Source: Mesorhizobium sp. M00.F.Ca.ET.216.01.1.1 (GTDB taxonomy: Bacteria; Pseudomonadota; Alphaproteobacteria; Rhizobiales; Rhizobiaceae). Taken from it: a stretch of DNA of 64,000 bases. The stretch is from positions 310,001-374,000 of the forward strand of contig NZ_SADR02000002.1 of assembly GCF_004010325.2 (NCBI RefSeq). The letters run 5' to 3'. Position numbers and translations under genes: made by a program. The notes beneath the pieces were generated by a model, which ran no database searches, was not told where the DNA came from, and saw only the letters and a program-made list of their open reading frames with translations. Positions 1 to 16,773 of this stretch are shown piece after piece. Within the stretch, counting starts at the first letter, position 1. Each line of letters opens with the position of its first letter.

Positions 1-181
1 GGAAATTGAGTTGGCGCGCTGCGCTCTCGAATATGTGTAGTGAGTTTAGTGTAGCGCCAAACCAACGATAATCTTGAGAAAAATCCGAGACTAGGGCACA
101 ATTTGTGAACTGAGGTGGACAGCTATCTCAAGTCCGGCCCTGTCGCGCCGAGTGACAGTTCGCGTCGGAGGAGCGGCGTCG
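1..181. other. Leader upstream of nuoJ
   Basis: No coding sequence is recognised here. A 7-base inverted repeat (TTGGCGC at 11-17, GCGCCAA at 54-60) is visible. A ribosome binding site GGAGGAG at 167-173 lies 8 bases before the nuoJ ATG. The operon promoter may lie here or upstream of the window. The spacing TTGAG-N4-ATCCG at 74-87 resembles a poor FNR/FixK box, which I do not call. Confidence 0.4.
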
Positions 182-682
182 ATGGATCAGGGGTTCTTTC
201 TTCTGTTCGCTGCGGCGTCCGTGGTCACGGCCCTGACCTTGGTCCTGGCGCGGAATCCAGTTCACAGCGCATTGGCGCTGATGGCGTGTTTCCTGCAGAT
301 ATCGGCGATCTTCGTCCTGCTCGAGGCGCCGTTGCTCGCGGTCATCCAGATTTTCGTCTATGTCGGCGCGATCATGGTCCTGTTCCTATTCGTGATCATG
401 ATGATTGATGTGCGCGAAGCGGTATTGCAGCGGTTCTTGCCGGGCAGCAACCTGCCTGTTCTGGTGCTGCTCGTCCTGCTTGGGGTCGAGATGCTTGTAC
501 TGGTGCTCAGGAGCGACCGCTTTTCGGTCGCGAAGCCCGTCGCAATGCGCACCGGCGGTGAGGTCAGGCAGCTCAGCACGACACTTTTCGCCGACTATCT
601 CCTGCCGTTTGAAGTCGCCTCCGTCATCCTGCTGGCGGCCCTGGTAGGCGCCATCGTGCTGGCGCGGAAGGAGCCGGAGTGA
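182..682 (+). CDS. NADH-quinone oxidoreductase subunit J
   Basis: Membrane subunit of respiratory complex I (166 residues), part of the J-K-A-H connecting module that links the quinone site to the antiporter-like pumps. The protein has about five hydrophobic segments. The stretch around residues 55-75 ([18 protein letters not shown]) is the typical NuoJ TM3 that undergoes the pi-bulge change in known structures. The ATG at 182 is chosen over an in-frame GTG at 152 because GGAGGAG lies at the right distance. The stop overlaps the nuoK start (TGATG), so the two are translationally coupled. It is the first gene of the cluster, whereas most bacterial operons begin with nuoA. Confidence 0.95.
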
Positions 683-984
683 TGGTGCCGCTCTGGTGGT
701 TTATCGTGCTCGGAGTGGTCCTGTTCGTGATCGGAGCGGCGGGCGTACTGCTCAGACGCAATATCCTGGTCGTGCTGATGTCGCTGGAACTGCTGCTTAA
801 CTCGGTCAACATCAACTTCATCGCTTTCGGGCACTACTACGACGACTTCCGCGGGCAGATTTTCGCAATCTTCGTCATCGCAATCACTGCGGCGGAGGTT
901 GCCGTTGCCCTCGGCATCTTGGTCGCCCTCGCGAGGAACAAGTCCACCCTCAAGGTCGACGAAGTGACCATGATGAAAGGATAG
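682..984 (+). CDS. NADH-quinone oxidoreductase subunit K
   Basis: Small three-helix membrane subunit of complex I (100 residues, normal family length), homologous to MrpC. It carries the conserved membrane Glu in the second helix ([14 protein letters not shown]) and a second Glu in helix 3 (TAAEVAVAL). Both are needed for proton transfer in characterised homologues. The ATG at 682 overlaps the nuoJ stop and has AGGAG 8 bases upstream; an in-frame GTG at 679 is the alternative. It is followed after 4 bases by the first antiporter-like gene. Confidence 0.95.
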
Positions 985-988
985 CGGC

Positions 989-2452
989 TTGGACCCGGTG
1001 ATGTCGATCCGGCCGCTGCTTGCCGTTGCCGTCGCAGGTCTGGCGGTCCTTGCAATTCTCCTTCTAAACAAACGCGAGCAACTCCGCGATGCAGTCTCGC
1101 CGTTGGCCGCGATCGCCATGTTCGCAATTGTCGCCTCAATGGCGCCCACGGTTCTGGCTGGCGGGACTGTCGATTTGCGCCTGTTCGAGATTCTGCCGGG
1201 GATCGACTTCGCTTTCCGTGTCGATGCGCTCGGCATGGTGTTTGCCACCGTCTCGTCGCTGCTGTGGATCGTGGCGTCAATCTATTCCATTGGCTACATG
1301 CGGCACTTGAATGAGCATGCGCAGACCCGGTTCTTCGCCTGCTTCGCCGCCAGCCTCGCGGCGGCCGCCGGGGGCGCCTTTGCCGCCAATCTGTTCACGT
1401 TGGTGATCTTCTACGAGGTGCTGAGCCTCGTTACCTATCCGCTCGTCTACCACCACGAGGACGAGGAGGGATGGACGGGCAGCCGCAAGTACCTCGTCTA
1501 TTTGATGGGCGCGTCGAAAAGCGTGCTTCTGGCCGCGCTGGCGTTGACTTACCACATTGCGGGGTCGCTCGACTTTGTGGCGGGGGGGCTGCTGGCGGGG
1601 GTCGACGCCTCGGCGCCGCTGCTGACTGTCGTCTATTTCTGCTATCTCTTCGGCTTCGCCAAGGCCGCGGTGATGCCGATGCACGCCTGGCTGCCTGCCG
1701 CGATGGTGGCGCCGACACCGGTCAGCGCTCTCTTGCATGCGGTGGCCGTCGTCAAGATGGGTGTGTTCTGCGTGCTGCGTGTGGTGTTCCACGTCTTCGG
1801 CGCAGGGCTGGTGGGCGGGCTGGGGCTCGGCATCGCCACGGCCTATGTGGTCTCGTTCACGATCCTGATGGCGTCCATCTACGCCCTGACGCGGGACGAC
1901 CTGAAGGCGCGGCTCGCCTATTCGACGGTCAGCCAACTCTCCTACATCGTGCTGGGCGCGGTTCTGCTGTCGCCCGTCGCGATGGTCGGGGGGATCATCC
2001 ACATCGCGGCGCATGCATTCTCGAAGATCACGCTCTTCTTCTGCGCCGGGTCGATCTATTGTGCGTCTGGCAAGCGGAACATCAGCGACATGGCCGGCAT
2101 CGGCCGCAGGCTGCCCTGGACGATGGGGGCGTTCTTCGTCGGCTCGCTCAGCATGATTGGGGTACCGCCGACTGCGGGCTTCATCAGCAAGTGGTATCTG
2201 GCTCTCGGCTCGGTGGAGGCCGGGGAGATCCCGTTCCTTATCGTGCTCTTGGTAAGTTCGGTCCTTAACGCCGCCTATTTCCTGCCGGTCAGCTATGTCG
2301 CTTTTTTCGGGACGGAGGCGCAGGAATGCCCGGCGACCGTTCGTGAAATTCCGATGTTGACGATCCCGCTGGTCGCGACCGCCATCCTGTCTGTGGCGAT
2401 GGGCATCTTCCCGGACTATTTCCTCGCCCTGGCGGAAAGAGTGGTCAGATGA
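989..2452 (+). CDS. MrpD/NuoL-type antiporter-like subunit 1
   Basis: Membrane protein of 487 residues from the proton-translocating antiporter family (Proton_antipo_M) shared by NuoL/M/N and MrpA/D. About 14 hydrophobic segments are visible. The charged residues that define the family are present: Glu143 in FYEVLSLVTYP, Lys225 in KAAVMPMHAWLP and Lys256 in VVKMGVF. It lacks the long C-terminal lateral helix of a true NuoL. The TTG at 989 has AAAGGA 7 bases upstream; the ATG at 1001 is an alternative without a clear ribosome binding site. Its stop overlaps the next start (ATGA). From its position it replaces part of the missing NuoL; the exact placement in the complex is inference. Confidence 0.85.
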   Translation: MDPVMSIRPLLAVAVAGLAVLAILLLNKREQLRDAVSPLAAIAMFAIVASMAPTVLAGGTVDLRLFEILPGIDFAFRVDALGMVFATVSSLLWIVASIYSIGYMRHLNEHAQTRFFACFAASLAAAAGGAFAANLFTLVIFYEVLSLVTYPLVYHHEDEEGWTGSRKYLVYLMGASKSVLLAALALTYHIAGSLDFVAGGLLAGVDASAPLLTVVYFCYLFGFAKAAVMPMHAWLPAAMVAPTPVSALLHAVAVVKMGVFCVLRVVFHVFGAGLVGGLGLGIATAYVVSFTILMASIYALTRDDLKARLAYSTVSQLSYIVLGAVLLSPVAMVGGIIHIAAHAFSKITLFFCAGSIYCASGKRNISDMAGIGRRLPWTMGAFFVGSLSMIGVPPTAGFISKWYLALGSVEAGEIPFLIVLLVSSVLNAAYFLPVSYVAFFGTEAQECPATVREIPMLTIPLVATAILSVAMGIFPDYFLALAERVVR

Positions 2453-2703
2453 TCAAGCGCGTCGTTGATTTCTTTGGCGATGAGAGACATGCAAGAAGGC
2501 GTCACCGACTATTCTATCTGGTGCTCGTCCTGATCGTCATCGCCGACTTTCTGATCTTCCGCGAACACGCCGAATACCTGTGGGAGCGGCTGCCTGGCTG
2601 GTCTGCCCTCTACGGCTTCGGCTCCTGCGTGCTTCTAATCTTCGTGTCCAAGTTTTTTGGCCATCAGTGCGGGCTGATGCGGCGCGAGGACTATTATGAC
2701 TGA
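2449..2703 (+). CDS. Small membrane protein between the two antiporter-like subunits
   Basis: An 84-residue protein with two predicted membrane helices (about residues 22-38 and 53-68), a basic N-terminus and a charged tail ending RREDYYD. The start overlaps the preceding stop (ATGA) and the end overlaps the next gene by 8 bases, so it is almost certainly made together with both antiporter-like subunits. I do not recognise a named family. By position it could be an accessory or spacer subunit that helps dock one pump onto the other. This is inference from context. Confidence 0.75.
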   Translation: MIKRVVDFFGDERHARRRHRLFYLVLVLIVIADFLIFREHAEYLWERLPGWSALYGFGSCVLLIFVSKFFGHQCGLMRREDYYD

Positions 2704-4456
2704 CTTCGTCCATCCCGGCCTGCTGTTCATTCTCGGCGCCATTCCGATCCCCTTCCTAAAAGGGTCTGTCCGCAAGGCCTATGTGCTGCTGATCCCAACG
2801 CTGGCGATCCTGGCCGTGCTCACGATGCATCCTGGCGGCTACGGCGCGGCGCGGTTCATCGGGCAGGAAATCATTATGGCGAAGGTCGACAAGCTAAGCA
2901 TCCTCTTCGCCACCGTTTTCAGCATCATGGCATTGATCGGCACGGTCTATGCCTGGCATCTGACGCACGCAGGACAGCATGTGGCGGCCTTCGTCTACGT
3001 CGGCAGCGCGCTCGGGGTAGTGTTCGCCGGCGATTACCTGACCCTGTTCCTGTTCTGGGAGGGTATGACGTTTGCCTCTGCCTACCTGGTCTTTGCCCAG
3101 CGCAGCGATCAGGCGCTCCGCGCAGGGTTCCGCTACCTCATGGTCCATATCACCGGCAGCGTAGCCCTGCTCGGTGGCATCATTCTCCATGGGTTCGCCA
3201 CCGGTTCGCTGCTCTTTGGCCCAATCGAGGGAGGGCTGGGCTTCGCCACCTGCCTGATCCTTGCCGGGTTCTTGCTCAACGCCGCGGTGCCGCCACTCAA
3301 CGCCTGGCTGACTGACGCCTACCCGGAAGCGACCGTCACCGGGGCCGTATTCATGAGTGCCTTCACCACGAAGACTGCCGTCTATGTGCTGGCGCGGGCG
3401 TTTCCGGGGACCGATCTTCTTGTCTGGCTCGGCACTGTGATGGCGCTTTACGGCGTTATCTACGCGGTGCTGGAGAACGATTGCCGGCGGCTCTTGGCCT
3501 ATCACATCGTCAGCCAGGTGGGCTACATGGTGGTGGGCATCGGCATCGGGACCGAGATGGCGGTGAACGGCGCCGTCAGCCATGCCTTCGCGCATATCCT
3601 GTACAAGGCACTCCTCTTCATGGGCGCGGGGGCGGTGATCCACGTCACGGGGCGGCGCAAGCTCACCGAACTCGGAGGGCTCTACAGAACCATGCCAGTA
3701 ACCCTTGCGCTCTACATGGTTGGCGCCTTCGCGATCTCGGCATTCCCGTTCTTCTCAGGCTTCGTCACCAAGTCGATGGTGGTGGCTGCCGCCGGACAGG
3801 ATCATCGCGCGCTGGTGGTGCTGGCGCTGACGATGGCGTCGTCAGGGACGTTCCTGCACACCGGGCTCAAGCTCCCGTACTACATGTTCTTCGGCACGGA
3901 CCAAGGGCTGGAAGCGCGAGAACCGCCGCGCAACATGTTGGTTGCGATGGGCATGGCAGCGGTGCTCTGCATTGCGATCGGGGTGTTCCCCCAGACGCTC
4001 TACGCGCTTCTGCCCTATCCGGTCGACTTCGAACCCTACACCGGCGTCCATGTCACCGAGAGCCTTGGCGTGCTGATGTTCACCGCTTTGGGCTTCGTCA
4101 TGTTCCTCAGGGCACTCGATCCCGAGAATACGATCAGCATCGATACAGACTGGTTCTACCGCATGGGTGCGCGGCGCTTCATGTGGCTCGCCGAAAGACC
4201 GCTGGCGCGCTACGAGAAGGCGGTGAGTGATGTGTCCGAGACCGCGGCGCTGCCCTTTCTGCACGGGATGGCACGGGCAGGACTGCGGATCGATCTCCAC
4301 GGCGTGGACGCCTTCGTGAACGGCGTTGCCCGCTCGATCCTGCGCGGCGGCCTGGCGCTGCGGCGGCTCCAGAGCGGCGTCGTGACCCATTACGCGCTGG
4401 CGATGATCGCTGGTGTGATCGCGGCTATCGCCGTATTCGCTGTGGCGTGGCGGTAG
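2696..4456 (+). CDS. MrpD/NuoL-type antiporter-like subunit 2 with NuoL-like C-terminal arm
   Basis: Membrane protein of 586 residues from the Proton_antipo_M family. Glu122 (LFWEGMTF) and Lys226 (TTKTAVY) match conserved family positions. Aligned on the W-L motif, the usual TM7 lysine is Asn195 and the nearby His is Asn202 (NAAVPPLNAWLTDAY), which is unusual for a pump. After about residue 470 there is a non-membrane stretch of about 90 residues, then a final helix (HYALAMIAGV). This is the layout of the NuoL lateral arm plus TM16. It probably takes the NuoL end position and clamps the other antiporter subunits. The start overlaps the small upstream gene by 8 bases. Confidence 0.85.
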   Translation: MTDFVHPGLLFILGAIPIPFLKGSVRKAYVLLIPTLAILAVLTMHPGGYGAARFIGQEIIMAKVDKLSILFATVFSIMALIGTVYAWHLTHAGQHVAAFVYVGSALGVVFAGDYLTLFLFWEGMTFASAYLVFAQRSDQALRAGFRYLMVHITGSVALLGGIILHGFATGSLLFGPIEGGLGFATCLILAGFLLNAAVPPLNAWLTDAYPEATVTGAVFMSAFTTKTAVYVLARAFPGTDLLVWLGTVMALYGVIYAVLENDCRRLLAYHIVSQVGYMVVGIGIGTEMAVNGAVSHAFAHILYKALLFMGAGAVIHVTGRRKLTELGGLYRTMPVTLALYMVGAFAISAFPFFSGFVTKSMVVAAAGQDHRALVVLALTMASSGTFLHTGLKLPYYMFFGTDQGLEAREPPRNMLVAMGMAAVLCIAIGVFPQTLYALLPYPVDFEPYTGVHVTESLGVLMFTALGFVMFLRALDPENTISIDTDWFYRMGARRFMWLAERPLARYEKAVSDVSETAALPFLHGMARAGLRIDLHGVDAFVNGVARSILRGGLALRRLQSGVVTHYALAMIAGVIAAIAVFAVAWR

Positions 4457-4464
4457 GGGGCGCG

Positions 4465-5940
4465 ATGGCGATCCCCTTGCTTAGTCTCATCGTGTTCACG
4501 CCAGCCGTCGGGGCAGCGGCGCTGATGTTTATCCGCAACGACGATGTGGTGCGGTGGATGGCACTGGGTGTCACTGTCCTCGACTTCGCGCTTTGCATCG
4601 CCATGCTCGGCGGCTTTGACACCTCTACCCATGAGATGCAGTTCACCGAGACGCGCCCGTGGGTACCCGCGCTAGGGATCACTTACGCACTTGGCATCGA
4701 CGGGATCAGCGCACCCTTCGTGTTCCTGACCGCGCTGTTGGGCTGGATCTGCGTGCTTGCCTCGTGGGTTGCGATCGACCGCAAGGTGAAGGAGTTCATG
4801 GTCAGCCTACTCGCCATGCAGGCGCTGATGCTGGGCGTGTTCTGCGCGCTGGACCTGTTCCTGTTCTACGTCTTCTGGGAGGCGATGCTGATTCCGATGT
4901 ACGTAATCATCGGCGTCTGGGGTGGCGACGGCCGGGTCTATGCAGCGTTCAAGTTCTTCCTCTACACGCTGGCAGGCAGCCTGATGTTCCTGATCGGTGT
5001 CATCGTGCTCTATTTCCACGGCGGTGAGACCTTCGACATCCGCACCCTGATGGCGCAGGATTTGCCGTTCCAGGTCCAGTCATGGCTGTTCTTCGCCTTC
5101 CTGATCGCCTTCGCGGTCAAGGTCCCGATGGTCCCGGTCCATACCTGGCTGCCGGACGCCCATGTGCAGGCACCGACGGCCGGCAGCATCATCCTCGCCG
5201 CCGTGCTCCTGAAGATGGGCGCCTACGGGTTCCTGCGGTTCTCGCTGCCAATGCTGCCCGAGGCGACGGTGCATTATTCGACGCTGATGCTGGTCCTTTC
5301 GGCAGTTGCTATCGTCTATGGCGGGTTGCTCGCCTTGGCGCAGGACGACCTGAAGAAGCTGGTGGCCTATTCCAGCATCAGCCACATGGGCCTGGTGACG
5401 CTGGGGATTTTCACGCTGAACCTCCGTGGGCTCGAGGGCGGCATCCTGCAAATGTTCAATCATGGCGTGACGACGGGCGCGTTGTTCCTGTCCGTTGGCC
5501 TTATCTACGAGCGGACCCATACCCGCAGCATCGCGGATTATGGCGGGCTGATGAAGGCGGCGCCGGTCTATACGGCGTTTCTTGCACTATTCACCCTGTC
5601 GTCGATGGCGCTGCCGGGAACGAGTTCGTTCGTGGGCGAGTTGCTGGTGCTGTCAGCCGCGTTCGCAGCCAACCTCGCTGTCGGCGCTGCCGCCGTTCTG
5701 GGGGCCTTGCTGGGAGCGGCCTATCTGCTTGGCATGTATAGGAAAGTCGCGCTTGGTCCGGCCAGCATCGGTATGCGGTTCAAGATCCGCGACGTGAACG
5801 CCCGCGAGATAGCGGCGATCCTGCCCCTAGCCGTCTTCGTTCTTTGGATCGGACTCTATCCGAAGCCCTTTCTCGAAATCATCGACGCCTCGGTGAAGCA
5901 TCTACTAGCGCAGGTGCACGGTAAGGGGGGCGCCCAATGA
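4465..5940 (+). CDS. NADH-quinone oxidoreductase subunit M
   Basis: Antiporter-like proton-pumping subunit of complex I (491 residues, normal NuoM length, about 14 helices). The essential residues are visible: Glu139 in FWEAMLIPM, Lys219 in KVPMVPVHTWLPDAH and the TM8 Lys in LLKMGAYG. The ATG at 4465 is preferred over an in-frame GTG at 4447 that would overlap the upstream gene, because GTAGGGGG precedes it. It overlaps nuoN by four bases (ATGA). Unlike the preceding subunit it is a canonical NuoM. Confidence 0.97.
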   Translation: MAIPLLSLIVFTPAVGAAALMFIRNDDVVRWMALGVTVLDFALCIAMLGGFDTSTHEMQFTETRPWVPALGITYALGIDGISAPFVFLTALLGWICVLASWVAIDRKVKEFMVSLLAMQALMLGVFCALDLFLFYVFWEAMLIPMYVIIGVWGGDGRVYAAFKFFLYTLAGSLMFLIGVIVLYFHGGETFDIRTLMAQDLPFQVQSWLFFAFLIAFAVKVPMVPVHTWLPDAHVQAPTAGSIILAAVLLKMGAYGFLRFSLPMLPEATVHYSTLMLVLSAVAIVYGGLLALAQDDLKKLVAYSSISHMGLVTLGIFTLNLRGLEGGILQMFNHGVTTGALFLSVGLIYERTHTRSIADYGGLMKAAPVYTAFLALFTLSSMALPGTSSFVGELLVLSAAFAANLAVGAAAVLGALLGAAYLLGMYRKVALGPASIGMRFKIRDVNAREIAAILPLAVFVLWIGLYPKPFLEIIDASVKHLLAQVHGKGGAQ

Positions 5941-7376
5941 CCGCCGCCGCGCTTTTCCAGTCGATTCTGGCGAGCCTGCCCGAGATCGTCGTGGTTACCG
6001 GGGCCTGCATCCTGCTGATCCTGGGTCAGCTTGTGCGGAAGGGGCAGCAACATTTCCTTGTCTGGGCTTCAGTCGCGGTCGTGCTGATTGCCGCCGTGGG
6101 AACACTCATGCTGGCGGGCGAGGTGCGGACGGCCTACTCGGGCATGTTCATCGCCGACCGCTTCGCGGTCTTCTTCAAGGTCGTGTTCTACCTGGTCACA
6201 GTTCTGACATTCCTTCTTTCGCGAAAATATGCCGAGATCGAAGGGATCGGGAGCAGTGAATACTACGTACTGCTGCTCTTGGCGCTTTCGGGAATGATGA
6301 TCATGGCCTCGGCGACCGACCTCCTGTCGATCTATGTAGGCCTCGAACTGATGGTGCTCTGCACCTATGTGCTGACCGGCTTCCTGCGGCAGCAGCAGCG
6401 GTCGAACGAAGCGGCGCTGAAATACGTGATCCTTGGCGGGGTCTCGACCGGGATTTTCCTTTACGGCGTTTCGCTGATCTACGGGCTCGCCGGCACGACG
6501 CAGTTGGACGGGATGGCTGCGGCGGTGACCGGTGATCCGCTCGATCCCGGATTGCTCCTGGCTGTGGTTTTTATCGTCGCGGGGCTGGTATTCAAGGTCG
6601 GCGCGGTGCCGTTCCATATGTGGGTGCCGGACGTCTATGAAGGCGCGCCGACAACGATCACCGCCTTCATGTCGGTGGGACCAAAGGCAGCGGGGTTCGC
6701 TGTGATCCTGCGGGTGTTCCTCAACCCACTGGTCGCAGCCTCGAACGTCTGGATCATCGTCGCGGTCATCGCAGCAGTGACGATGGCGCTCGGCAGTTTC
6801 GTGGCGCTGGTGCAGGACAATTTCAAGCGCCTCTTGGCCTATTCCAGCATCGCCCATGCCGGGTTCGCCATGTTCGGCGTGGCGGCCGGCGGTGCGGACG
6901 GGGTTGCCAGCGTGATGCTCTATTTGCTGATCTATGCGTTCATGAACCTCGGCATCTTCGCCATCGTCATCATGATGCGGAACGGCGATTTCTCGGGCGA
7001 GGTCATCGAACACTACGCTGGTTTCGCCAAGTCGCATCGCGGACTGGCGCTTCTGATGCTGCTTTATCTGTTCTCGCTGGCCGGCATTCCGCCGACAGCG
7101 GGGTTCTTCGCCAAGTTCTACGTGCTGGTCGCACTCGTTGAGCGGGGTTTCGTCATGCTGGCGGTGATCGCAGTGCTGCTGAGCGCCGTTGCCGCCTACT
7201 TCTACATCCGCATCGTCATGGTGATCTACATGCGCGAGCCGGAGGGCGCGTTCGACCCGGCGCTGACGCCCGCGGTCGGCGCCACACTCGCCTTCACCGC
7301 TGCCGGCACCATCGGCATCGGCCTATTTCCGGCGTGGTTTCTGAGGCTTGCTCAACATGCCGCAATTGGCGGCTGA
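5937..7376 (+). CDS. NADH-quinone oxidoreductase subunit N
   Basis: Antiporter-like subunit of complex I (479 residues), the pump next to NuoK/J/A. It shows the family Glu in GLELMVLC and the Lys in FKVGAVPFHMWVPDVYEG. The AYSSIAHAGF motif in the second half is typical of NuoN. ATGA overlap with nuoM indicates coupled translation. A 154-base gap follows before nuoA, the only sizeable gap between plus-strand genes of the cluster. An internal promoter could sit there, but I see no clear motif. Confidence 0.97.
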   Translation: MTAAALFQSILASLPEIVVVTGACILLILGQLVRKGQQHFLVWASVAVVLIAAVGTLMLAGEVRTAYSGMFIADRFAVFFKVVFYLVTVLTFLLSRKYAEIEGIGSSEYYVLLLLALSGMMIMASATDLLSIYVGLELMVLCTYVLTGFLRQQQRSNEAALKYVILGGVSTGIFLYGVSLIYGLAGTTQLDGMAAAVTGDPLDPGLLLAVVFIVAGLVFKVGAVPFHMWVPDVYEGAPTTITAFMSVGPKAAGFAVILRVFLNPLVAASNVWIIVAVIAAVTMALGSFVALVQDNFKRLLAYSSIAHAGFAMFGVAAGGADGVASVMLYLLIYAFMNLGIFAIVIMMRNGDFSGEVIEHYAGFAKSHRGLALLMLLYLFSLAGIPPTAGFFAKFYVLVALVERGFVMLAVIAVLLSAVAAYFYIRIVMVIYMREPEGAFDPALTPAVGATLAFTAAGTIGIGLFPAWFLRLAQHAAIGG

Positions 7377-7530: not shown

Positions 7531-7896
7531 GTGACCGGAATGGAGTTCCTGCCGGTTCTTTTCATGGTCGCCGGAATTGTTCTGGTGGCGATGGTTACGC
7601 TTTTTGTCTCCTCGCTACTGCGCCCGTCCAATCCCTATCCCGCGAAGAACATGCCCTATGAATGCGGCATGGACCCGGCGGGCGAAGCCGCCGGAGGCCG
7701 CTTCAGGGTGCAGTTCTTCATCCTCGCGATCCTGTTTGTCGTCTTCGATGTCGAGACGATGTTTCTCTTTCCCTGGGCCGTCGTCCTGAAAGAGATCGGG
7801 CTGGTCGGCTATGTCGAGATGTTCATCTTCATCTTGCTGCTTCTCGTGGGCTTCGGCTACGCTTGGCTGAAGGGGGCGCTGGAATGGGAGGCGTAA
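7531..7896 (+). CDS. NADH-quinone oxidoreductase subunit A
   Basis: Three-helix membrane subunit of complex I (121 residues). The conserved loop PYECGMDP with its Cys and Glu is present and lies near the quinone channel in known structures. Helix 2 carries the typical [14 protein letters not shown]. The start could be the GTG at 7531 or the ATG at 7540; neither has a strong ribosome binding site. The end overlaps nuoB by 13 bases. From here the order A-B-C-D-E-F-G is the usual bacterial one. Confidence 0.95.
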
Positions 7897-8387
7897 ACAA
7901 CGCGATCCGCGACAGCGTGCTGTTCACCACGGCCGACAGCCTGATCAGCTGGAGCCGAAGGTCGGCGCTGTGGCCCGAAACCTTCGGCATTGCCTGCTGC
8001 GCCATCGAGATGATCTCGGCGGGGTGTGCCCGCTACGATCTCGACCGCTTTGGCGTGGTGTTCCGGCCGTCGCCGCGCCAGTCCGACGTAATGATCATCG
8101 CCGGCACCATAACGCGGAAATTCGCGCCCGTGGTGCGCCGGCTCTATGACCAGATGCCGGAGCCGCGCTGGGTTATTGCCATGGGCACCTGCGCCATCTC
8201 GGGCGGGGTCTACAACACCTATGCCGTGGTGCAGGGGGCGGAGACCTTCGTGCCGGTGGACGTGCATGTGCCCGGCTGCCCGCCGCGGCCCGAGGCGCTG
8301 ATGCACGGCTTCCTCCTGCTTCAGGAGAAGATCAAGAAATCCAGGGCGCTGGCCGGAACGCCTCTGGACCGGGTCGCGGTGCCATGA
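7884..8387 (+). CDS. NADH-quinone oxidoreductase subunit B
   Basis: Peripheral subunit of complex I that holds the terminal [4Fe-4S] cluster N2, the direct electron donor to quinone. The 167-residue protein has the N2 ligands: tandem Cys38-Cys39 (GIACCAIEM), Cys103 (GTCAISGG) and Cys132 (VPGCPPRPE). The ATG at 7884 lies inside the nuoA end, preceded by AGGGGGCG, and gives the standard N-terminus. The stop overlaps nuoC (ATGA). Confidence 0.97.
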
Positions 8388-8920
8388 GCGTGGAGACGTC
8401 CCTCATCCGCACCCTGATCGCGGAACGTTTCGGGGAGGCAATCGAGGAGCTGGGCTTTTCGCATGGGGTTCACGCTTTCGCCGTTCCGCCTGACATGATC
8501 GTCGAGCTTTGCCGGTTCCTCAAGGAACACCCGGCGCTGCGGTTCGATTTCCTGTCCGACATCTGCGGGGTCGACCATCACCCCGAGGCCCCGCGCTACG
8601 AGGCGGTGTACCACCTCTGTTCGCTGACGAACAAATGGCGCGTGCGCATCAAGTGCCGCCTCGGCGATCCGCCGCGGGTCCCGTCGGTGACGGGGGTCTG
8701 GCGCACCGCCAATTGGCACGAGCGCGAGGCCTGGGACATGTACGGGATCAGATTCGAGGGCCACCCCGACCTGCGCCGGATCTATATGTGGGAAGGGTTC
8801 GAGGGCTTCCCGCAGCGCAAGGACTTTCCGCTCCGGGGCTACAAGGACAAGCTGAACCCGTTTGGCGCCGAAGGCCCGCCGCCGACGCAGCCCGACCTTG
8901 CCACCAAGGACATTCCATAG
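8384..8920 (+). CDS. NADH-quinone oxidoreductase subunit C
   Basis: Peripheral 30-kDa-type subunit of complex I (178 residues), a structural partner of NuoD and NuoB at the quinone site. The family signature [20 protein letters not shown] followed by [10 protein letters not shown] and KDFPLRG is intact. NuoC and NuoD are separate genes here, unlike the fused NuoCD of E. coli. ATGA overlap with nuoB; 25 bases separate it from nuoD. Confidence 0.96.
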
Positions 8921-8945: not shown

Positions 8946-10160
8946 ATGACCGAAGTCACGGAACTGAGCTGGCCAGAAGCCGATGCGCCCCACACCAAGG
9001 AGGTGCTTCTCAACCTCGGTCCGCAGCATCCCAGCACGCATGGGGTGCTGCGGCTCGTCCTTGAGTTGGACGGCGAATATGTCGCACGCGTGGACCCGCA
9101 TATCGGCTACCTCCACCGCGGCACCGAGAAACTGGCCGAGAGCTTCACCTACACCCAGATCTTCCCGCTGACCGACCGGCTCGACTATCTCTGCCCGCCC
9201 TCGAACAACCTGGCCTTCGCACTAGCGGTGGAGAAGCTCCTGGGCATCGAAGCGCCGATCCGCGCGCAATATATCCGCGTGCTGATGGCCGAACTGGCGC
9301 GGATCTCAGGTCATCTCCTGATCACCGGCGCGCTCCCGCTGGACCTGGGCGCCATGACCGCGCTGCTTTACGCCATGCGCGAGCGCGAAATGATCATGGA
9401 CCTGTTGGAGATGATCAGCGGGGCGCGGATGCACACCTCCTTCTGTCGGGTCGGCGGTGTGCGCGAGGATCTGCCCGACGGGTTCTTCCCCAAGATCCGG
9501 GAGTTCTGCGACATCTTCCCGAACCGGATCCGCGACTATGAACGGCTGGTCGATAACAACCGGGTGTTCCTGAAACGCACGCAGGGGATCGGCGTGATCT
9601 CCGCCGCGGACGGCATCGATCTGGGCCTGAGTGGCCCGAACCTGCGCGCCTCGGGCGTCGACTGGGACATCCGCCGCGACGAGCCCTATGAGATCTACGA
9701 CCGGCTCGCGTTCAATGTTGTTACCCGCGATGAAGGCGATTGCTACGCACGCTGGCGATGCCGCGTCGAGGAAATGCGCGAGAGCGTCCGGATTATCGAG
9801 CAATGCCTTGACCAGATGCCCGACGGGCCGTTCCAGATCGACATGCCGACAATTGCCTTCCCGGTCGACAAGGATCGGGTGCACTGCTCGATGGAGGCGC
9901 TGATCCAGCATTTCGACCTGTCGGCCTATGGCTTCAAGGTGCCGAAGGGCGAGGTCTATTCGGCGATCGAGGCGCCAAAGGGCGAGCTCGGCTTCTACAT
10001 CATCAGCGACGGGTCGCCAAAACCGTTCCGCATGAAGGTGCGGGCACCTTCGTTCGTCAACCTACAGGCACTCTTCGGGGTCACCAACGCGCACTACCTG
10101 GCGGACATGATCGCCGTGCTCGGCAGCCTCGACCCCGTGATGGCGGAAGTGGACAAGTAG
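8946..10160 (+). CDS. NADH-quinone oxidoreductase subunit D
   Basis: 49-kDa-type peripheral subunit of complex I (404 residues), homologous to [NiFe]-hydrogenase large subunits but without the metal site. It forms the quinone-binding pocket with NuoB. Visible signatures are LGPQHPSTHGVLR near residue 24, DPHIGYLHRGTEKLAE and a C-terminal DPVMAEVDK. Most homologues end in a motif like GEIDR or GEVDR, so the AEVDK ending is a mild deviation. The ATG at 8946 gives the expected short N-terminus. Confidence 0.97.
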   Translation: MTEVTELSWPEADAPHTKEVLLNLGPQHPSTHGVLRLVLELDGEYVARVDPHIGYLHRGTEKLAESFTYTQIFPLTDRLDYLCPPSNNLAFALAVEKLLGIEAPIRAQYIRVLMAELARISGHLLITGALPLDLGAMTALLYAMREREMIMDLLEMISGARMHTSFCRVGGVREDLPDGFFPKIREFCDIFPNRIRDYERLVDNNRVFLKRTQGIGVISAADGIDLGLSGPNLRASGVDWDIRRDEPYEIYDRLAFNVVTRDEGDCYARWRCRVEEMRESVRIIEQCLDQMPDGPFQIDMPTIAFPVDKDRVHCSMEALIQHFDLSAYGFKVPKGEVYSAIEAPKGELGFYIISDGSPKPFRMKVRAPSFVNLQALFGVTNAHYLADMIAVLGSLDPVMAEVDK

Positions 10161-10177
10161 CAGAGGATTTGGACGCG

Positions 10178-10690
10178 ATGACCATGCGCGAAAAGATCGA
10201 AGAGGCGGCGGCGCGGTATCCCGACCAGCGTTCGGCGATCATGCCCGCGCTTCTGATCGCGCAGAGGGAACGTGGCCATCTGCCGGGCCCGGTGCTGGAA
10301 GAGGTCGCCGACATCCTCGGCGTCGAGCGGATCTGGGTCTACGAACTGGCGACCTTCTACACCCTCTTCCATACCGAGCCGGTGGGCATTTTCCACCTGC
10401 AGCTCTGCGACAACGTCTCCTGCATGCTGCGCCGATCCGACGACCTGCTGAGGCATCTGGAGGAGGTGCTCGGCATCAAGAAGGGCGGCACGACCCCAGA
10501 CGGGCTATTCACGCTTTCGACCGTCGAATGCCTCGGCGCTTGCGAGATGGCCCCGGTGATGCAGGTCGGCGACGACTATCACGGCGACCTCGACATGGCG
10601 CGGATCGACGCGCTCCTGGACAGGCTGCGCGCGACGGTGCGGCAAGCGACTGGCGCCGATCTCGCCGCCGCAGGACCGCAGGGAGAATAG
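10178..10690 (+). CDS. NADH-quinone oxidoreductase subunit E
   Basis: 24-kDa-type subunit of the NADH dehydrogenase module (170 residues) with a thioredoxin-like fold carrying the [2Fe-2S] cluster N1a. The four ligands are Cys77 and Cys82 (LCDNVSC) and Cys118 and Cys122 (VECLGACE). The ATG at 10178 is chosen because GAGGA lies 10 bases upstream; a TTG at 10169 is too close to it. The gene lies 4 bases before nuoF. Confidence 0.96.
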
Positions 10691-10694
10691 CGCC

Positions 10695-11960
10695 ATGTTC
10701 GAACCGGTCCTTCTCAGGAACGTGGACGTGCCGGATGGCCATCTGCTCGCGACCTACGAGGCCGGCGGCGGCTACCAGGCGCTGGCCAAGGCGCTACGGG
10801 AGCACACGCCTGACGAGATCATCGACCTTGTCAAGAATTCCAACCTGCGCGGTCGCGGCGGAGCCGGATTTCCGACGGGCATGAAATGGAGCTTCGTGCC
10901 CAAGCGTGCTGGCAAGCCGAAATACCTATGCTGCAACGCTGATGAGGGCGAGCCGGGCACCTTCAAGGATCGGATCATCATGGAGCGTGACCCGCACCAA
11001 CTGATCGAAGGCATGGCGATCAGCGCCTACGCGATAGGAGCGGAAACCGCCTATGTCTACATCCGTGGGGAATACACGCTGGCGATCTCGCGGCTGGAGC
11101 AGGCGATCGCCGAGGCTCATGCGAAGGGTTATCTGGGAACACGGATTCTGGGCTCGGATTTCAGCTTCGTCGTGCACATCCATTGCGGCGCCGGCGCCTA
11201 TATCTGCGGCGAGGAGACCGCGATGCTCGACTCGCTCGAAGGCAAGCGGGCGCAGCCGCGTCTGAAACCGCCGTTTCCGGCGGTCGAAGGGCTCTACGCC
11301 AGCCCGACCGTGATCAACAACGTCGAGACGCTGGCCTGCGTACCCCATATCGTGGCGCGAGGGCCGGACTGGTTCCGCGGCATCGGCCCGGACAAGAGCC
11401 CCGGCCCGAAGCTCTATTGCCTCAGCGGACAGGTGCGGAAACCGGGCCTTTACGAGCTGCCAATGGGGATACCGCTGCGCGAACTGGTCGAGGACTGCGC
11501 CGGTGGGCCGCTACCGGGGCGCAAGCTCAAGGCGGTGATCCCAGGCGGGGTCTCGGCGCCGCTGATCCCGGAGCGCGGGCTGGACGTCGGAATGGACTTC
11601 GACTCGCTGGCCGCCGCTGGCTCGATGCTCGGCTCGGCCGGGGTGATCGTGATCGACGACTCGACCTGCATCGTCAAAGTCGCCACCCGGATCATCGAGT
11701 TCTTCCACCACGAGTCCTGTGGCAAGTGCACGCCTTGCCGCGAAGGGCTGAACTGGGTCGTGAAAGTGCTGCGCCGGGTCGAGGCGGGCCAGGGCGCGCC
11801 GGGCGATCTGGAACAGCTGGAGGCGCTCTGCAAAGGCATTTTCGGCAACACGTTCTGCGCTCTGGGCGACGGAGCGGCGATGGGCCTGCGGGCAGCACTG
11901 GCCCATTTCGAGCATGAATTCGTCGCTCATATCGAGGAGCGGAGGTGCCCGTTTCACTGA
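10695..11960 (+). CDS. NADH-quinone oxidoreductase subunit F
   Basis: 51-kDa-type subunit (421 residues) that binds NADH and FMN and starts electron transfer. The nucleotide-binding segment [10 protein letters not shown] is at residues 53-62. A second Gly-rich segment ([15 protein letters not shown]) lies further on. The [4Fe-4S] N3 ligands are Cys342, Cys345, Cys348 ([11 protein letters not shown]) and Cys388 (NTFCALGDG). Presence of intact E, F and G means the enzyme is a true NADH-oxidising complex I, not a ferredoxin- or F420-linked form. Confidence 0.97.
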
Positions 11961-11993: not shown

Positions 11994-14582
11994 ATGGTTA
12001 GCGTGACAATCGATGAACGAACGGTGGAAGTGGCGGCGGGCTCTACGGTGCTCCAGGCTGCCGAGCGTTTGGGCATCGACATCCCGACCTTCTGCTACCT
12101 GAAGCGGCTGCCGGCGCTGGCCTCCTGCCGCATGTGCCTGGTGGAGATCGAGGGGCAGCGGCGGCTACAGCCTTCTTGCGCCACCGCGGTCACCGACGGC
12201 ATGGTGGTGCGCACGAACACGCGGCTGATCGACGAAACGCGCTCTTCCATGCTCGACATGCTGCTCGCCAACCACCCCCTCGACTGCCCGATCTGCGACA
12301 AGGGTGGCGAGTGCGAGCTTCAAGACATGGTGATGGCGTACGGGCCCCGCGCAAGCCGGTTCCGCGATGCCAAGCGTGTGTTCCACTCCGAGGATATCCG
12401 TCTCAGCCCGGTCATCATCATGAACGTCAACCGCTGCATCCAGTGCCAGCGCTGCGTCCGGATGTGCGAAGAAGTCGTCGGCGCGGTCGCCTTGGGCACC
12501 GTTGAAAAAGGCATGGATACCGCTGTCACTGGCTTCGAGGGCAGTCTCGCGAGTTGCGATCAGTGCGGCAATTGCGTCGAGGTCTGCCCGGTCGGCGCGC
12601 TGATGAGCTTCCCCTATCGCTACAAGGCGCGACCCTGGGATCTGGTCGAGACCGACACGGTCTGCCCGCACTGCGGCACCGGCTGCCAACTTACCGTCGG
12701 CGCGCGCAAGGGCGAGTTCATGCGGGTCCGCTCGAAGGTGGAGCACGGAGTCAACCGCGAAACGCTCTGCGTGCGCGGGCGCTTCGGCCTCGACTTCGTC
12801 GGGAGTCAGGACCGGATCAAACGGCCGATGATCCGCCGTGACGGGATCCTGGTTCCGGTTTCCTGGAACGAAGCGGGGGACTACCTACGCCGGCGGCTGT
12901 CGACCGTCGACAGCAAGGCCGCGGGCGGGCTGGCCTCCCCGCGCCTGCCCAACGAGGTGCTTTATCAGTTCCAGAAGCTGATGCGGACAGCATTCCGGAC
13001 CAACAATATCGACTGCTCCTCGCGCTGGTCCACGCCCTTTGATATGCTCGGCCCGTTGGTGGCCGCCTTCTACACACGCGCACCGCTGGAGGAGGTGATC
13101 GGCAACGACTGTGTGCTTGTCGTCGGTGGCAACGTGACGGACGAAAACCCAGTCACCGAATATTTGCTGCGGGACTGTGCGCGTCGGCGACAGACCAGGT
13201 TACTGATGCTCTCGGCGCGGCCATCCCGTCTGGACGCCGATGCGCGGGCAGTCGTTCGCGTGCCGCCGGGCGGTGAGGCTCAGGGCCTTGCCGCGGTGGT
13301 GACCGGGCTAGGGGCGGCTGGTCAGGCATTGCCGGGCGATGTTTTTGCGGACATCGGCGCGACAGCCGGCCGGCCGGCCGCGGCCACCGATAGTGACGGT
13401 CCGGACCGCCTGGCCGCAGCGCTGCTGGAAGGCCGGAGCGTCACCGTGCTTGTCAGCGCCGACCTCCTAAGATCGCCCCTGGCGCGTGCGACGTTGCAGC
13501 AGCTCAACAACCTTTTGCAGGTTCTCCGCGCACTCGGTAAGGGCCCGGCGATGCAGTTCCTCTTCGACCGTGCCAACCAACTGGGCGCCTGGGACATGGG
13601 CGTTCTGCCGGCGGCGCTGCCGGGGCTACGCGCGCTCGCCAATGATGCGGCGCGCGCAGTTCTCGAACGGGCCTGGGGCGCCGAAATCCCGTCTGAACCG
13701 GGCGTGGATTTCGACGCCATGCTGGAACTCTGTGACAGGAAGCGAATGGGTGCGCTCTATATCGCCGGAAGCGACCCCCTGATGTCCTATCCCGACCGGG
13801 GATTCGTGCAACGGGCGCTTCGTGCCGCCGATCTCCTGATCGTGCAGGACGCGTTCCTCACGGATACAGCGGGCCTGGCGGATGTCGTGCTGCCCGCGGC
13901 GGGTTATGGCGAGGAATCCGGCACGTTTACCAACAACGAAGGCCGGACCCAGAAGGTCTGCAAGTTCCGCGAACCAGCCCTCGAGGCGCGGGACAATCTG
14001 GCGATATTCGACTTCGTTGCGACGCTTCGCGGCCAAGCGTTGCGGCCGTCGATCCAAGGCGAAATCTTCGGCGAGATTGCCCGGCTGGTTCCGGCCTACC
14101 AGGGGTTGACGCAGGACGGGCTTGGCGCCGACGGAGTATTCACGAAGGCGGCCCTTGCGCCACCGGTTGGCGAGTTCTTCGCCCTCCCGCCTGCCCCCAT
14201 TGCAGCCGACCGGCTCATGCTGGTCACCGGCAACTGCCTGTTCCACAACGGATATCTTTCCGAGCGCTCGGAGGTCCTGAATACGGTCGCGGATGACCCA
14301 TATGTCGAGATGAGCGCGCCGGATGCAGCGCAGCTTGGTCTTGCGGATGATGATCAGGTGGTCGTGCGATCCGCCCAGGGCGAACTGACGGCGAAGCTCA
14401 AGGTCAACAAGCGTTTTCCCAGGGGCCTCGTGTTCGTTCCCGAAAACTACAGATCCCTGCGTCTCAACAGCCTTATGCGGCGGGGCGAATACCCATGTCC
14501 GGTGGAAGTTCAAATGGCGTACGCGGTCTTTGAGATCGCCAACGTGGCCGGGGCGGAGGCGCGGCCTGCAAATCTGGGCTGA
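11994..14582 (+). CDS. NADH-quinone oxidoreductase subunit G (N7-containing, long form)
   Basis: 75-kDa-type subunit (862 residues) with a ferredoxin-like N-terminus and a molybdopterin-oxidoreductase-like body. Ligands seen: [2Fe-2S] N1b Cys34, Cys45, Cys48, Cys62; N5 His94, Cys98, Cys101, Cys107; N4/N6a-type pair of [4Fe-4S] motifs at Cys148/151/154/158 and Cys188/191/194/198. A further Cys224-x2-Cys227-x3-Cys231-x27-Cys259 motif matches the off-pathway cluster N7. N7 and the 860-residue length are features of the E. coli/Thermus kind. The housekeeping alphaproteobacterial and mitochondrial kind is nearer 690 residues without N7. The last plus-strand gene of the complex; 33 bases follow nuoF. 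Confidence 0.96.
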   Translation: MVSVTIDERTVEVAAGSTVLQAAERLGIDIPTFCYLKRLPALASCRMCLVEIEGQRRLQPSCATAVTDGMVVRTNTRLIDETRSSMLDMLLANHPLDCPICDKGGECELQDMVMAYGPRASRFRDAKRVFHSEDIRLSPVIIMNVNRCIQCQRCVRMCEEVVGAVALGTVEKGMDTAVTGFEGSLASCDQCGNCVEVCPVGALMSFPYRYKARPWDLVETDTVCPHCGTGCQLTVGARKGEFMRVRSKVEHGVNRETLCVRGRFGLDFVGSQDRIKRPMIRRDGILVPVSWNEAGDYLRRRLSTVDSKAAGGLASPRLPNEVLYQFQKLMRTAFRTNNIDCSSRWSTPFDMLGPLVAAFYTRAPLEEVIGNDCVLVVGGNVTDENPVTEYLLRDCARRRQTRLLMLSARPSRLDADARAVVRVPPGGEAQGLAAVVTGLGAAGQALPGDVFADIGATAGRPAAATDSDGPDRLAAALLEGRSVTVLVSADLLRSPLARATLQQLNNLLQVLRALGKGPAMQFLFDRANQLGAWDMGVLPAALPGLRALANDAARAVLERAWGAEIPSEPGVDFDAMLELCDRKRMGALYIAGSDPLMSYPDRGFVQRALRAADLLIVQDAFLTDTAGLADVVLPAAGYGEESGTFTNNEGRTQKVCKFREPALEARDNLAIFDFVATLRGQALRPSIQGEIFGEIARLVPAYQGLTQDGLGADGVFTKAALAPPVGEFFALPPAPIAADRLMLVTGNCLFHNGYLSERSEVLNTVADDPYVEMSAPDAAQLGLADDDQVVVRSAQGELTAKLKVNKRFPRGLVFVPENYRSLRLNSLMRRGEYPCPVEVQMAYAVFEIANVAGAEARPANLG

Positions 14583-14640: not shown

Positions 14641-15081
14641 TCAGTGATAGCCGGTCCCGGCGATGTAGTCGTATAGCACCTGCTCGTTGCTCTGCAATTC
14701 GTCGAGCCGGTGCTTGACCACGTCGCCGATGCTCACCACGCCGACAGGGGTGCCGCCATCCATGACCAGCACATGGCGCGTGCGCCGTTCTGTCATCATC
14801 GCCATCACCGAGGGTAGCAAATCCTGTGTCGAACAGGTCGCCACACTGCGGTTCATGATATCAGCGACCCGCATCAAGGGCGCGTTGGTTCCGTGTTTAG
14901 CCACCGCATTGCAGCAGTCCCGCTCCGACAGCGTGCCCAGGCAATCCCCGGGGAAACGGCTGACGATCACGAAGCCGATGTTGTTCTCCCGAAACAGCCG
15001 TAGCACTTCCACCATCGTTTGACCTGGAGTGACTGAGACGACCTCGGGAGCCTTGGTCTTCAAGATTTGGCAGACCAGCAT
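14641..15081 (-). CDS. CBS-domain pair protein next to nuoI
   Basis: Soluble 146-residue protein made of two CBS domains (about residues 8-65 and 74-135). It shows the LSERDCCNAVAKHG and VSIGDVVKHRLDEL segments typical of stand-alone rhizobial CBS proteins. CBS pairs bind adenine nucleotides such as AMP, ATP or NADH and act as energy sensors in other proteins. It is read in the same direction as nuoH and nuoI, 46 bases after nuoI, and is likely on the same transcript. A role in tuning complex I to the energy state is inferred from this context only. Confidence 0.85.
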   Translation of the reverse strand: MLVCQILKTKAPEVVSVTPGQTMVEVLRLFRENNIGFVIVSRFPGDCLGTLSERDCCNAVAKHGTNAPLMRVADIMNRSVATCSTQDLLPSVMAMMTERRTRHVLVMDGGTPVGVVSIGDVVKHRLDELQSNEQVLYDYIAGTGYH

Positions 15082-15127
15082 CTGAGCCTCCTGTCTGCGC
15101 GCTCCGGCTTGCCAGCCGGCGCGCCTT

Positions 15128-15694
15128 TCACGTTCGTCGGATATTCCGCCACCAGTTGTACCCCTGCGGCTCGCTCGTCTCGACCAGCACGTCCTGCTCG
15201 GTGTTCAGGCGTGCAGAAACCACACCGCCTCCGGTCGCCGCCTTGCCCGGCTTGCCGAGCAGATCGTCACGCCCGATCACAAGGTCACGCGAGGAAAAAC
15301 TCGAGAATTCGTATTGTTGGCCAAGCGCGATCGCGTCGGCCGGACAGGCGTCCTCGCACAGCCCGCAGAACAGGCACCGGGCCATGTCGATCTCGAATTT
15401 TGCTGGGTGTCGGTTGCCCTTCTCGTCCTCGTAGGGGATGACTTCAATGCAGTAACAGGGACAAATCCGCGCGCAGAGCTCGCAAGCTACGCATTTGATC
15501 TCGCCCTCGTCGTCGCGCTTCAGGAAGTGATGCCCGCGGTAACGCGAATAGGGCAACCATTTTTCCTTGTCCGGATACTGCATGGTCACGGGTCTGGAGA
15601 ACATGTAGCCGAAGGTCAGCGCCAAGGCATTCGCCAGATCGGCGAAGAACGCCCAGCCGATCCATATTCCAGTTCTGTCCAGTGCGCGCGACAT
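15128..15694 (-). CDS. NADH-quinone oxidoreductase subunit I
   Basis: Ferredoxin-like peripheral subunit (188 residues) carrying the [4Fe-4S] clusters N6a and N6b between NuoG and NuoB. Ligands are Cys68, Cys71, Cys74, Cys78 (CVACELCARICP) and Cys107, Cys110, Cys113, Cys117 (CLFCGLCEDACP). The ATG at 15694 follows GAGGCGACA and gives the normal N-terminal amphipathic helix; an upstream in-frame start at 15730 would overlap nuoH. It lies after nuoH on the minus strand, convergent with nuoG. Confidence 0.96.
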   Translation of the reverse strand: MSRALDRTGIWIGWAFFADLANALALTFGYMFSRPVTMQYPDKEKWLPYSRYRGHHFLKRDDEGEIKCVACELCARICPCYCIEVIPYEDEKGNRHPAKFEIDMARCLFCGLCEDACPADAIALGQQYEFSSFSSRDLVIGRDDLLGKPGKAATGGGVVSARLNTEQDVLVETSEPQGYNWWRNIRRT

Positions 15695-15713
15695 TGTCGC
15701 CTCGTTGCAGCCC

Positions 15714-16700
15714 CTAAAGGAAAGCAACACCGGTTATGATTATGTTCGCCATTGACAGAGGAAGCAAGACCTTCCACCCGATCGCCATCAATTGGTCGTA
15801 GCGGTAGCGCGGGAAAGTGAAGCGAAACCAGATAAACACATAGACGAAGAACGCGACCTTGAGCACGAACCAGAGGAGCGGTGGCAACGGGACCAGCACG
15901 CCGTTCCAGCCGCCGAAGAACAGGATTACCGCCAGGACCGACGTCAAAAGCATGATGGCGTATTCACTGACCATGAAGAACGCAAAGCGGATACCGCTGT
16001 ATTCGGTATGGAACCCGGCCCCCAGGTCGCCTTCCGCTTCCGCCAGGTCGAAGGGAATGCGCTGCGATTCGGCCAGCCCGGCGACGAAGAACACGAAGAA
16101 CCCGACCGGTTGGTAGACGATGTTCCAGACATCGGCTTGCGCTCGCACGATCTCGAGCAGGCTCATGGATTGCGCCAACATCACCACGCCGATGACCGCG
16201 AACCCCATCGGGATCTCGTAGCTGATCATCTGAGCGCAGGTCCTGAGGCTGCCCAGGACAGCGTATTTGCTGTTCGCCGCCCAGCCGCCGAAGATGACGC
16301 CATAGACCTCAATCCCGATCACCGCAAAGACGAAAAGGAGCGCCACGTTCATGTTGGAGACATAGAGAGTGATCTCAGTGCCGAGGACCGAGACGGATTC
16401 GCCGAAGGGGACAGCGACGAACACCACGAAGGGCGGGGCGAGCGCCAGGATTGGCGCCAATTTGAACAGGAAGCGGTCGGCCTCAGCCGGGATGTGGTCC
16501 TCTTTGGTCAAGAGCTTGATCCCGTCCGCCACCGGCTGCAGCAGCCCATGCCATCCCACACGCATCGGCCCCATCCTCTGCTGCATGTGCCCCGCGACCT
16601 TGCGTTCCAGCCAGGTCAGCGGCAAGGGCAGCAGCAGCAGGATCGCAATCAGCAACGCGACCTTGAAGACGATCAGCCCAAGAGCAACGACGAGTTCCAT
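15714..16700 (-). CDS. NADH-quinone oxidoreductase subunit H
   Basis: Membrane subunit of complex I (328 residues, about eight helices) that forms the quinone entry channel. Typical segments are visible: LTWLERKVAGHMQQRMGP near the N-terminus, the Glu/Arg-rich loop AESQRIPFDLAEAEGDLGAG and the C-terminal FRFTFPRYRYDQLM. The ATG at 16700 is chosen; an in-frame TTG at 16721 is a weaker alternative. It starts a separate minus-strand unit nuoH-nuoI-CBS, so complex I assembly here depends on two transcripts that meet tail to tail. Confidence 0.96.
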   Translation of the reverse strand: MELVVALGLIVFKVALLIAILLLLPLPLTWLERKVAGHMQQRMGPMRVGWHGLLQPVADGIKLLTKEDHIPAEADRFLFKLAPILALAPPFVVFVAVPFGESVSVLGTEITLYVSNMNVALLFVFAVIGIEVYGVIFGGWAANSKYAVLGSLRTCAQMISYEIPMGFAVIGVVMLAQSMSLLEIVRAQADVWNIVYQPVGFFVFFVAGLAESQRIPFDLAEAEGDLGAGFHTEYSGIRFAFFMVSEYAIMLLTSVLAVILFFGGWNGVLVPLPPLLWFVLKVAFFVYVFIWFRFTFPRYRYDQLMAIGWKVLLPLSMANIIITGVAFL

Positions 16701-16773
16701 GATCCGAGGCCACTCGTTCAACGGGACGAGACCCGCGACCCGATTAGCACTGTGCAGTTGTCAGACTGCGCGC

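Follow-up and report, generated by a model that had tools for sequence, protein, structure and literature searches.

Does a complex I with four antiporter-like subunits also have four pumps? The question is raised by a 64,000-nucleotide stretch of the genome of Mesorhizobium sp. M00.F.Ca.ET.216.01.1.1 (contig NZ_SADR02000002.1, positions 310,001 to 374,000; here called the window), which begins with a complex I cluster in the order nuoJ, nuoK, X, Y, Z, nuoM, nuoN and nuoA-G on the forward strand, followed on the reverse strand by a CBS-domain gene, nuoI and nuoH. Gene order and family matches agree that two antiporter-like proteins, X (487 aa) and Z (586 aa), lie between nuoK and nuoM with the 84-residue protein Y between them, and that X, Z, NuoM and NuoN make up four antiporter-like subunits with no NuoL in the cluster, as a sequence-only reading of the window had proposed. 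That reading also suggested that the complex may pump more protons per NADH or use another ion, and the first of these ideas is weakened by the residues of Z. In transmembrane helix 7 (TM7), Z is without the lysine that the other antiporter-like subunits carry, which suggests that this subunit, predicted at the outer end of the membrane arm, is probably not an ordinary extra proton pump.

The arrangement itself is not new in kind, but is that of the already published "green complex I" of rhizobia, in which two MrpD-like subunits replace NuoL (PMC9040806; PMC7415380; these and the other papers cited by PMC number were available in part, and what is said of them refers to those parts).

The TM7 Position of Subunit Z

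An ion pair between a TM7 lysine and a TM5 glutamate is described for each antiporter-like subunit (PMC10212512), and residues E144 and K229 of NuoL have been called universally conserved in a paper according to which other groups saw low complex I activity on mutating them (PMC4938563). At the position of this lysine, Z has an asparagine in all 72 complex I loci, near-copies included, namely 62/62 loci with nuo genes, 7/7 with only nuoM/N in reach, and a further 3/3 loci of the same family with nuoM that were found by a family hidden Markov model (HMM) search. The lysine is present in X in 62/62 of the same complex I loci, in aligned full-length calls of NuoM (48/48) and NuoN (40/40) from those loci, and in canonical NuoL (30/30) from 58 genomes of the class. 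Profile-profile alignment placed N195 of Z on K245 of the same genome's own NuoL and confirmed the register.

A search with two peptide patterns supplied part of the sample, as the best 80 of at least 575 loci, and unusual Z may be missed. Context labels came from a BLAST-based script, which left 9 of the 95 Z loci unassigned and 7 with only nuoM/N in reach; the 62 complex I loci include 19 close rhizobial relatives (the window, L040-L056 and L068), and L041 and L047 are apparently one and the same locus. A less biased check with the family HMM gave 15 genomes out of 299 with a match at 1e-120, and the matches followed by nuoM were all in the window's own family. Outside complex I, the TM7 position of Z is mixed (14 Lys, 15 Asn and 1 Ser, n = 30, where "outside" for 13 HMM-found loci means no nuoM within 1.5 kb downstream), and loci with no context assignment had asparagine in 9/9.

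The standard pump set (TM5 Glu, TM7 Lys, TM8 Lys/His, TM12 Lys/Glu) is complete in X, which has TM5 Glu, TM7 Lys, TM8 His and Lys, and TM12 Lys in the 62 complex I loci, whilst Z is without the TM7 lysine in 62/62. Z retains its other pump residues in 62/62: TM5 Glu, TM8 Lys, two TM11 His, TM11 Lys and TM12 Lys. None of the four residues of the NuoL TM8 signature (H254, T257, M258, V259) is found in Z, and only the His and Val in X, again in 62/62 loci. Z also carries a TM6 histidine, His151, in 62/62 complex I loci, one that was absent from X and from a small comparison set of NuoL, NuoM, NuoN, D1, HyfB and HyfF. The TM7/TM6 pairs in 89 Z were Asn/His (74), Lys/Gln (12), Lys/His (1), Lys/Lys (1) and Ser/His (1). 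The Mrp-type Z of L094 combines the TM7 lysine with the TM6 histidine, and is a possible intermediate of the swap from Lys to Asn/His.

Loss of the TM7 lysine could be read as decay of Z, something that we find hardly credible, given that the asparagine is constant over phyla and seven other checked positions, including the TM6 histidine, are kept in 62/62, which points to constraint on Z instead. The main rival is the published view that each of the four antiporter-like subunits pumps a proton, giving five H+ per NADH. This is how green complex I has been read (PMC9040806), and the number of antiporter-like subunits has been tied to the number of protons pumped (PMC10212512). The TM5 Glu, TM8 Lys and TM12 Lys that Z retains are consistent with this view, and its TM6 histidine might substitute for the lysine. 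The lysine shared by X, NuoM, NuoN and canonical NuoL is, however, absent from Z in 72/72 complex I loci; we therefore consider the five-proton count rather unlikely, and the TM7 asparagine together with the TM6 histidine makes "four pumps, five protons" an unsafe conclusion.

Distribution and Phylogeny of the X-Y-Z Cassette

X-Y-Z is found among nuo genes far beyond the rhizobia, in Deltaproteobacteria, Verrucomicrobia, Planctomycetota, Acidobacteria and Nitrospirota, and 62 of the 95 Z loci, from many phyla, have this context. The same three genes in the same order also occur in stand-alone Mrp-type clusters (L034, L037, L093, L099, L106 and L114), which differ from the window cluster in that the nuo genes are replaced by mrp genes together with a third D-like subunit and in that the TM7 residue of Z can be lysine. 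By a crude motif, the third D-like subunit has the TM7 lysine in 11/15 cases and is not resolved in the other 4.

This second context raises the possibility that Z, or X and Z, transport Na+ or K+ in place of H+. The cassette stands there with mrpB, C, E, F and G and a DUF4040-like protein, and X and Z are above the cut-offs of two NCBI families that are both named antiporter subunit D. Without the lysine, moreover, the TM5 glutamate may be free, and a carboxylate beside a neutral asparagine could bind a cation. The family names are, however, annotations and not tests, and as Z outside complex I is of both Lys and Asn types, asparagine is no marker of Na+ use. No sodium-site residue was identified, and no search was aimed at one. 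Transport of Na+ or K+ is judged improbable.

In a tree of 103 antiporter-like proteins, the X clade and the Z clade each had a Shimodaira-Hasegawa-like approximate likelihood ratio test (SH-aLRT) support of 100, and stood apart from the NuoL/MrpA/HyfD group (97), NuoM (100) and NuoN (100). The sample of 27 X and 27 Z was hand-chosen, Z was trimmed to 470 residues, and the tree carries long-branch warnings, including one for EcHyfB against Z. As both clades contain complex I and Mrp-type members, X and Z are neither NuoL nor exclusively Mrp, rather than both belonging to an independent Mrp antiporter, an outcome that the sequence-only reading had allowed for. Both are also below the NuoL cut-off (TIGR01974).

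It could still be argued that X, Y and Z work outside complex I, either as a separate antiporter, as the stand-alone clusters might suggest, or beside a green complex that borrows the canonical NuoL, whose gene is on another contig. The cassette, however, sits among nuo genes in most Z loci and across many phyla, X-Y-Z is adjacent to or overlaps nuoM, and no mrpA-G gene set was matched around X and Z in the window cluster, where the two are surrounded by nuoJ, K, M, N and A-G. The genome (7.24 Mb) has nine PF00361 matches, which are the four of the window cluster, the canonical NuoL, NuoM and NuoN, and two on contig C33. The canonical nuoL, whose presence elsewhere in the genome was foreseen as a possible objection, does exist, but it sits on contig C11 in a nuo operon of its own, separate from the window cluster (nuoI there was not resolved by the gene caller), and so would not be a missing part of the green cluster. 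Both forms of the argument are considered very improbable.

The locus on C33 (L032) is a third antiporter-like locus of this genome, with NuoB- and NuoD-related proteins nearby. It looks hydrogenase-like (hydrogenase-4-like).

Subunit Y and the Lateral Helix of Z

The small membrane protein inserted between X and Z is more than a feature of this window, as Y was present in 87/87 loci where X and Z were in reach. Conserved in it are D33, G56, C60, K68 and a C-terminal EDYYD; an acid (D or E) in the first helix and a lysine in the second helix are each found in 85/87. Family-library scans of the window proteins gave no family match for Y.

The NuoL-like C-terminal arm noticed on the 586-residue protein was borne out by an AlphaFold2 model of Z, in which the lateral helix and TM16 are present. 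Relative to alphaproteobacterial NuoL the helix is a net ~10 residues longer, with no 26-residue insert. The TM15-TM16 distance is 111 in the window Z, compared with 103 as the median of 30 NuoL (range 83–109); medians were 88 in Mrp-type Z (n = 15, range 45–136) and 112 in complex I Z (n = 62, range 51–159), although the script gave false values for some Z through a wrong segment or a long frame. The step between Mrp-type and complex I Z also appears in models (44 residues in that of L099 against 73, with low confidence in this region), and the difference in predicted helix length is kept as a difference of context only. The idea of a ruler, in which the lateral helix gains ~25 residues per extra subunit, failed against the NuoL median of 103, and against L081, whose locus has a single NuoM and a single NuoN. 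In L081 and L092 (Nitrospirota), the lateral helix of Z has a further insert of ~28 residues, with a TM15-TM16 distance of 139; the L092 locus ends after Z.

Relationship to Known Forms of Complex I

The window cluster resembles green complex I in having two MrpD-like subunits for one NuoL in a nuo cluster, in accompanying, as a second operon, the standard complex I operon of its genome, and in its rhizobial host. The same cluster is present on pSymA of S. meliloti, with a Z 84% identical, and the closest Z among the matches listed is that of Mesorhizobium prunaredense (90%). The extra motif of the window NuoG is in keeping with the extra 4Fe4S cluster described for NuoG of the green form (PMC4967309). 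The host, on the other hand, is a Mesorhizobium, whereas the green form was absent outside Rhizobium and Sinorhizobium among the genera surveyed for expression in a paper that also claims its upregulation in symbiosis (PMC7415380). Complex_I_3 of Ca. Manganitrophaceae has two MrpD-like subunits said to be closest to the rhizobial green ones, but also a second NuoM and a 26-residue lateral-helix insert (PMC9040806). The window cluster has one NuoM and no such insert.

NuoM and NuoN of the window cluster are both standard, the single NuoM being called by TIGR01972. A further form, the 2M complex I, was reportedly described from Nitrospira and others by Chadwick in 2018. It likewise has four antiporter-like subunits, but the additional one is another NuoM, accompanied by a lengthened NuoL (PMC6606698), whereas the window cluster is without NuoL and its X and Z fall outside the NuoM clade.

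Whilst the arrangement is known, no mention of Asn195/His151 of Z or of subunit Y was found in the available parts of the green complex I literature, and the literature search met no description of the TM7 change of Z, the founding papers on green and 2M complex I being beyond its reach. For the residue swap, as read from sequence, and the constant small subunit no earlier description was thus found, which is not a claim that they are unpublished.

Layout of the Cluster and Neighboring Genes

Coordinates are given in Table 1. From X to nuoM the genes are joined by overlaps, as the sequence-only reading had it, but the nuoK/X junction is a gap.

Table 1. Features of the complex I cluster, in window positions.
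Feature	Position	Strand	Basis
nuoJ	152..682	+	PF00499; gene order matches S. meliloti pSymA
nuoK	679..984	+	NF004320 above cut-off
X, antiporter-like, 487 aa	989..2452	+	NF006236, 834 bits
Y, 84 aa, two likely membrane helices (sequence reading)	2449..2703	+	Conserved columns; no family match
Z, antiporter-like, 586 aa, NuoL-type C-terminal arm	2696..4456	+	
His151 of Z, TM6, codon CAT	3146..3148	+	Codon read from sequence
Asn195 of Z, TM7, codon AAC	3278..3280	+	Aligns with the conserved TM7 Lys (K229 in E. coli NuoL)
Lateral helix of Z, predicted, residues 486-558, 73 aa	4151..4369	+	AlphaFold2 model; predicted local distance difference test (pLDDT) there ~50-67
nuoM	4447..5940	+	TIGR01972, 633 bits
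nuoN	5937..7376	+	TIGR01770, 510 bits
nuoA	7531..7896	+	PF00507
nuoB	7884..8387	+	Translation; start set by S. meliloti comparison, open frame from 7662
nuoC	8384..8920	+	PF00329
nuoD	8946..10160	+	PF00346; start set by S. meliloti comparison, open frame from 8862
nuoE	10169..10690	+	PF01257
nuoF	10695..11960	+	PF01512, PF10589
nuoG, extra Fe4S4 motif (Molybdop_Fe4S4)	11994..14582	+	
CBS-domain protein	14641..15081	-	PF00571; same place in S. meliloti
nuoI, longest frame	15128..15730	-	Fer4 matches; same place in S. meliloti
nuoH, longest frame	15714..16721	-	PF00146; NF004741 above cut-off

NuoB of the cluster shares 55% identity with the canonical NuoB of the same genome. The cluster NuoG has five CxxC motifs in addition to its Molybdop_Fe4S4 match, and the canonical NuoG has three CxxC. 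On the reverse strand (14641-16721), the genes nuoI and nuoH lie in convergent orientation to nuoJ-G, and the same split of the operon is kept in S. meliloti. The CBS-domain gene between nuoG and nuoI, annotated as the same neighbor in S. meliloti, might encode an energy-state sensor; CBS-like matches also adjoin the green clusters L057, L058, L060, L070 and L073. No FNR/FixK-type box was found upstream of nuoJ in the window, which as a whole had 6 one-mismatch matches against 3.8 expected.

Proposed Mechanism and Implications

The reading favored here, and held with about even confidence, is that X would be a full pump and Z a rewired outer module that adds no full fifth proton. X would replace NuoL as the third full pump, and Z would cap the membrane arm and carry the lateral helix. 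Because it has Asn195 and His151, Z would not be able to operate a normal Glu-Lys switch, and would probably pass protons out, or hold them back, with no full fifth proton resulting. Y would likely lie at the contact of X and Z. A more specific version, which is possible but tentative, is that a His151/Asn195 switch replaces Glu-Lys in the exit module and has a lower set-point pKa, so that it stops or slips where the outside is acidic, as for example in the symbiosome, with Y holding X to Z and X supplying the third ordinary pumping step. Until measured, the complex should be described as having "three full pumps and one rewired subunit" and not "four pumps".

It is openly disputed whether each antiporter-like subunit pumps its own proton (PMC10212512) or all protons exit via the last one (PMC9271201). 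A direct test of this dispute is offered by a naturally occurring complex I that has gained a subunit and in which one of the four antiporter-like subunits consistently lacks the TM7 lysine. Counting subunits is an unsafe way to count pumps, and the cluster also draws attention to the unnamed small subunit Y.
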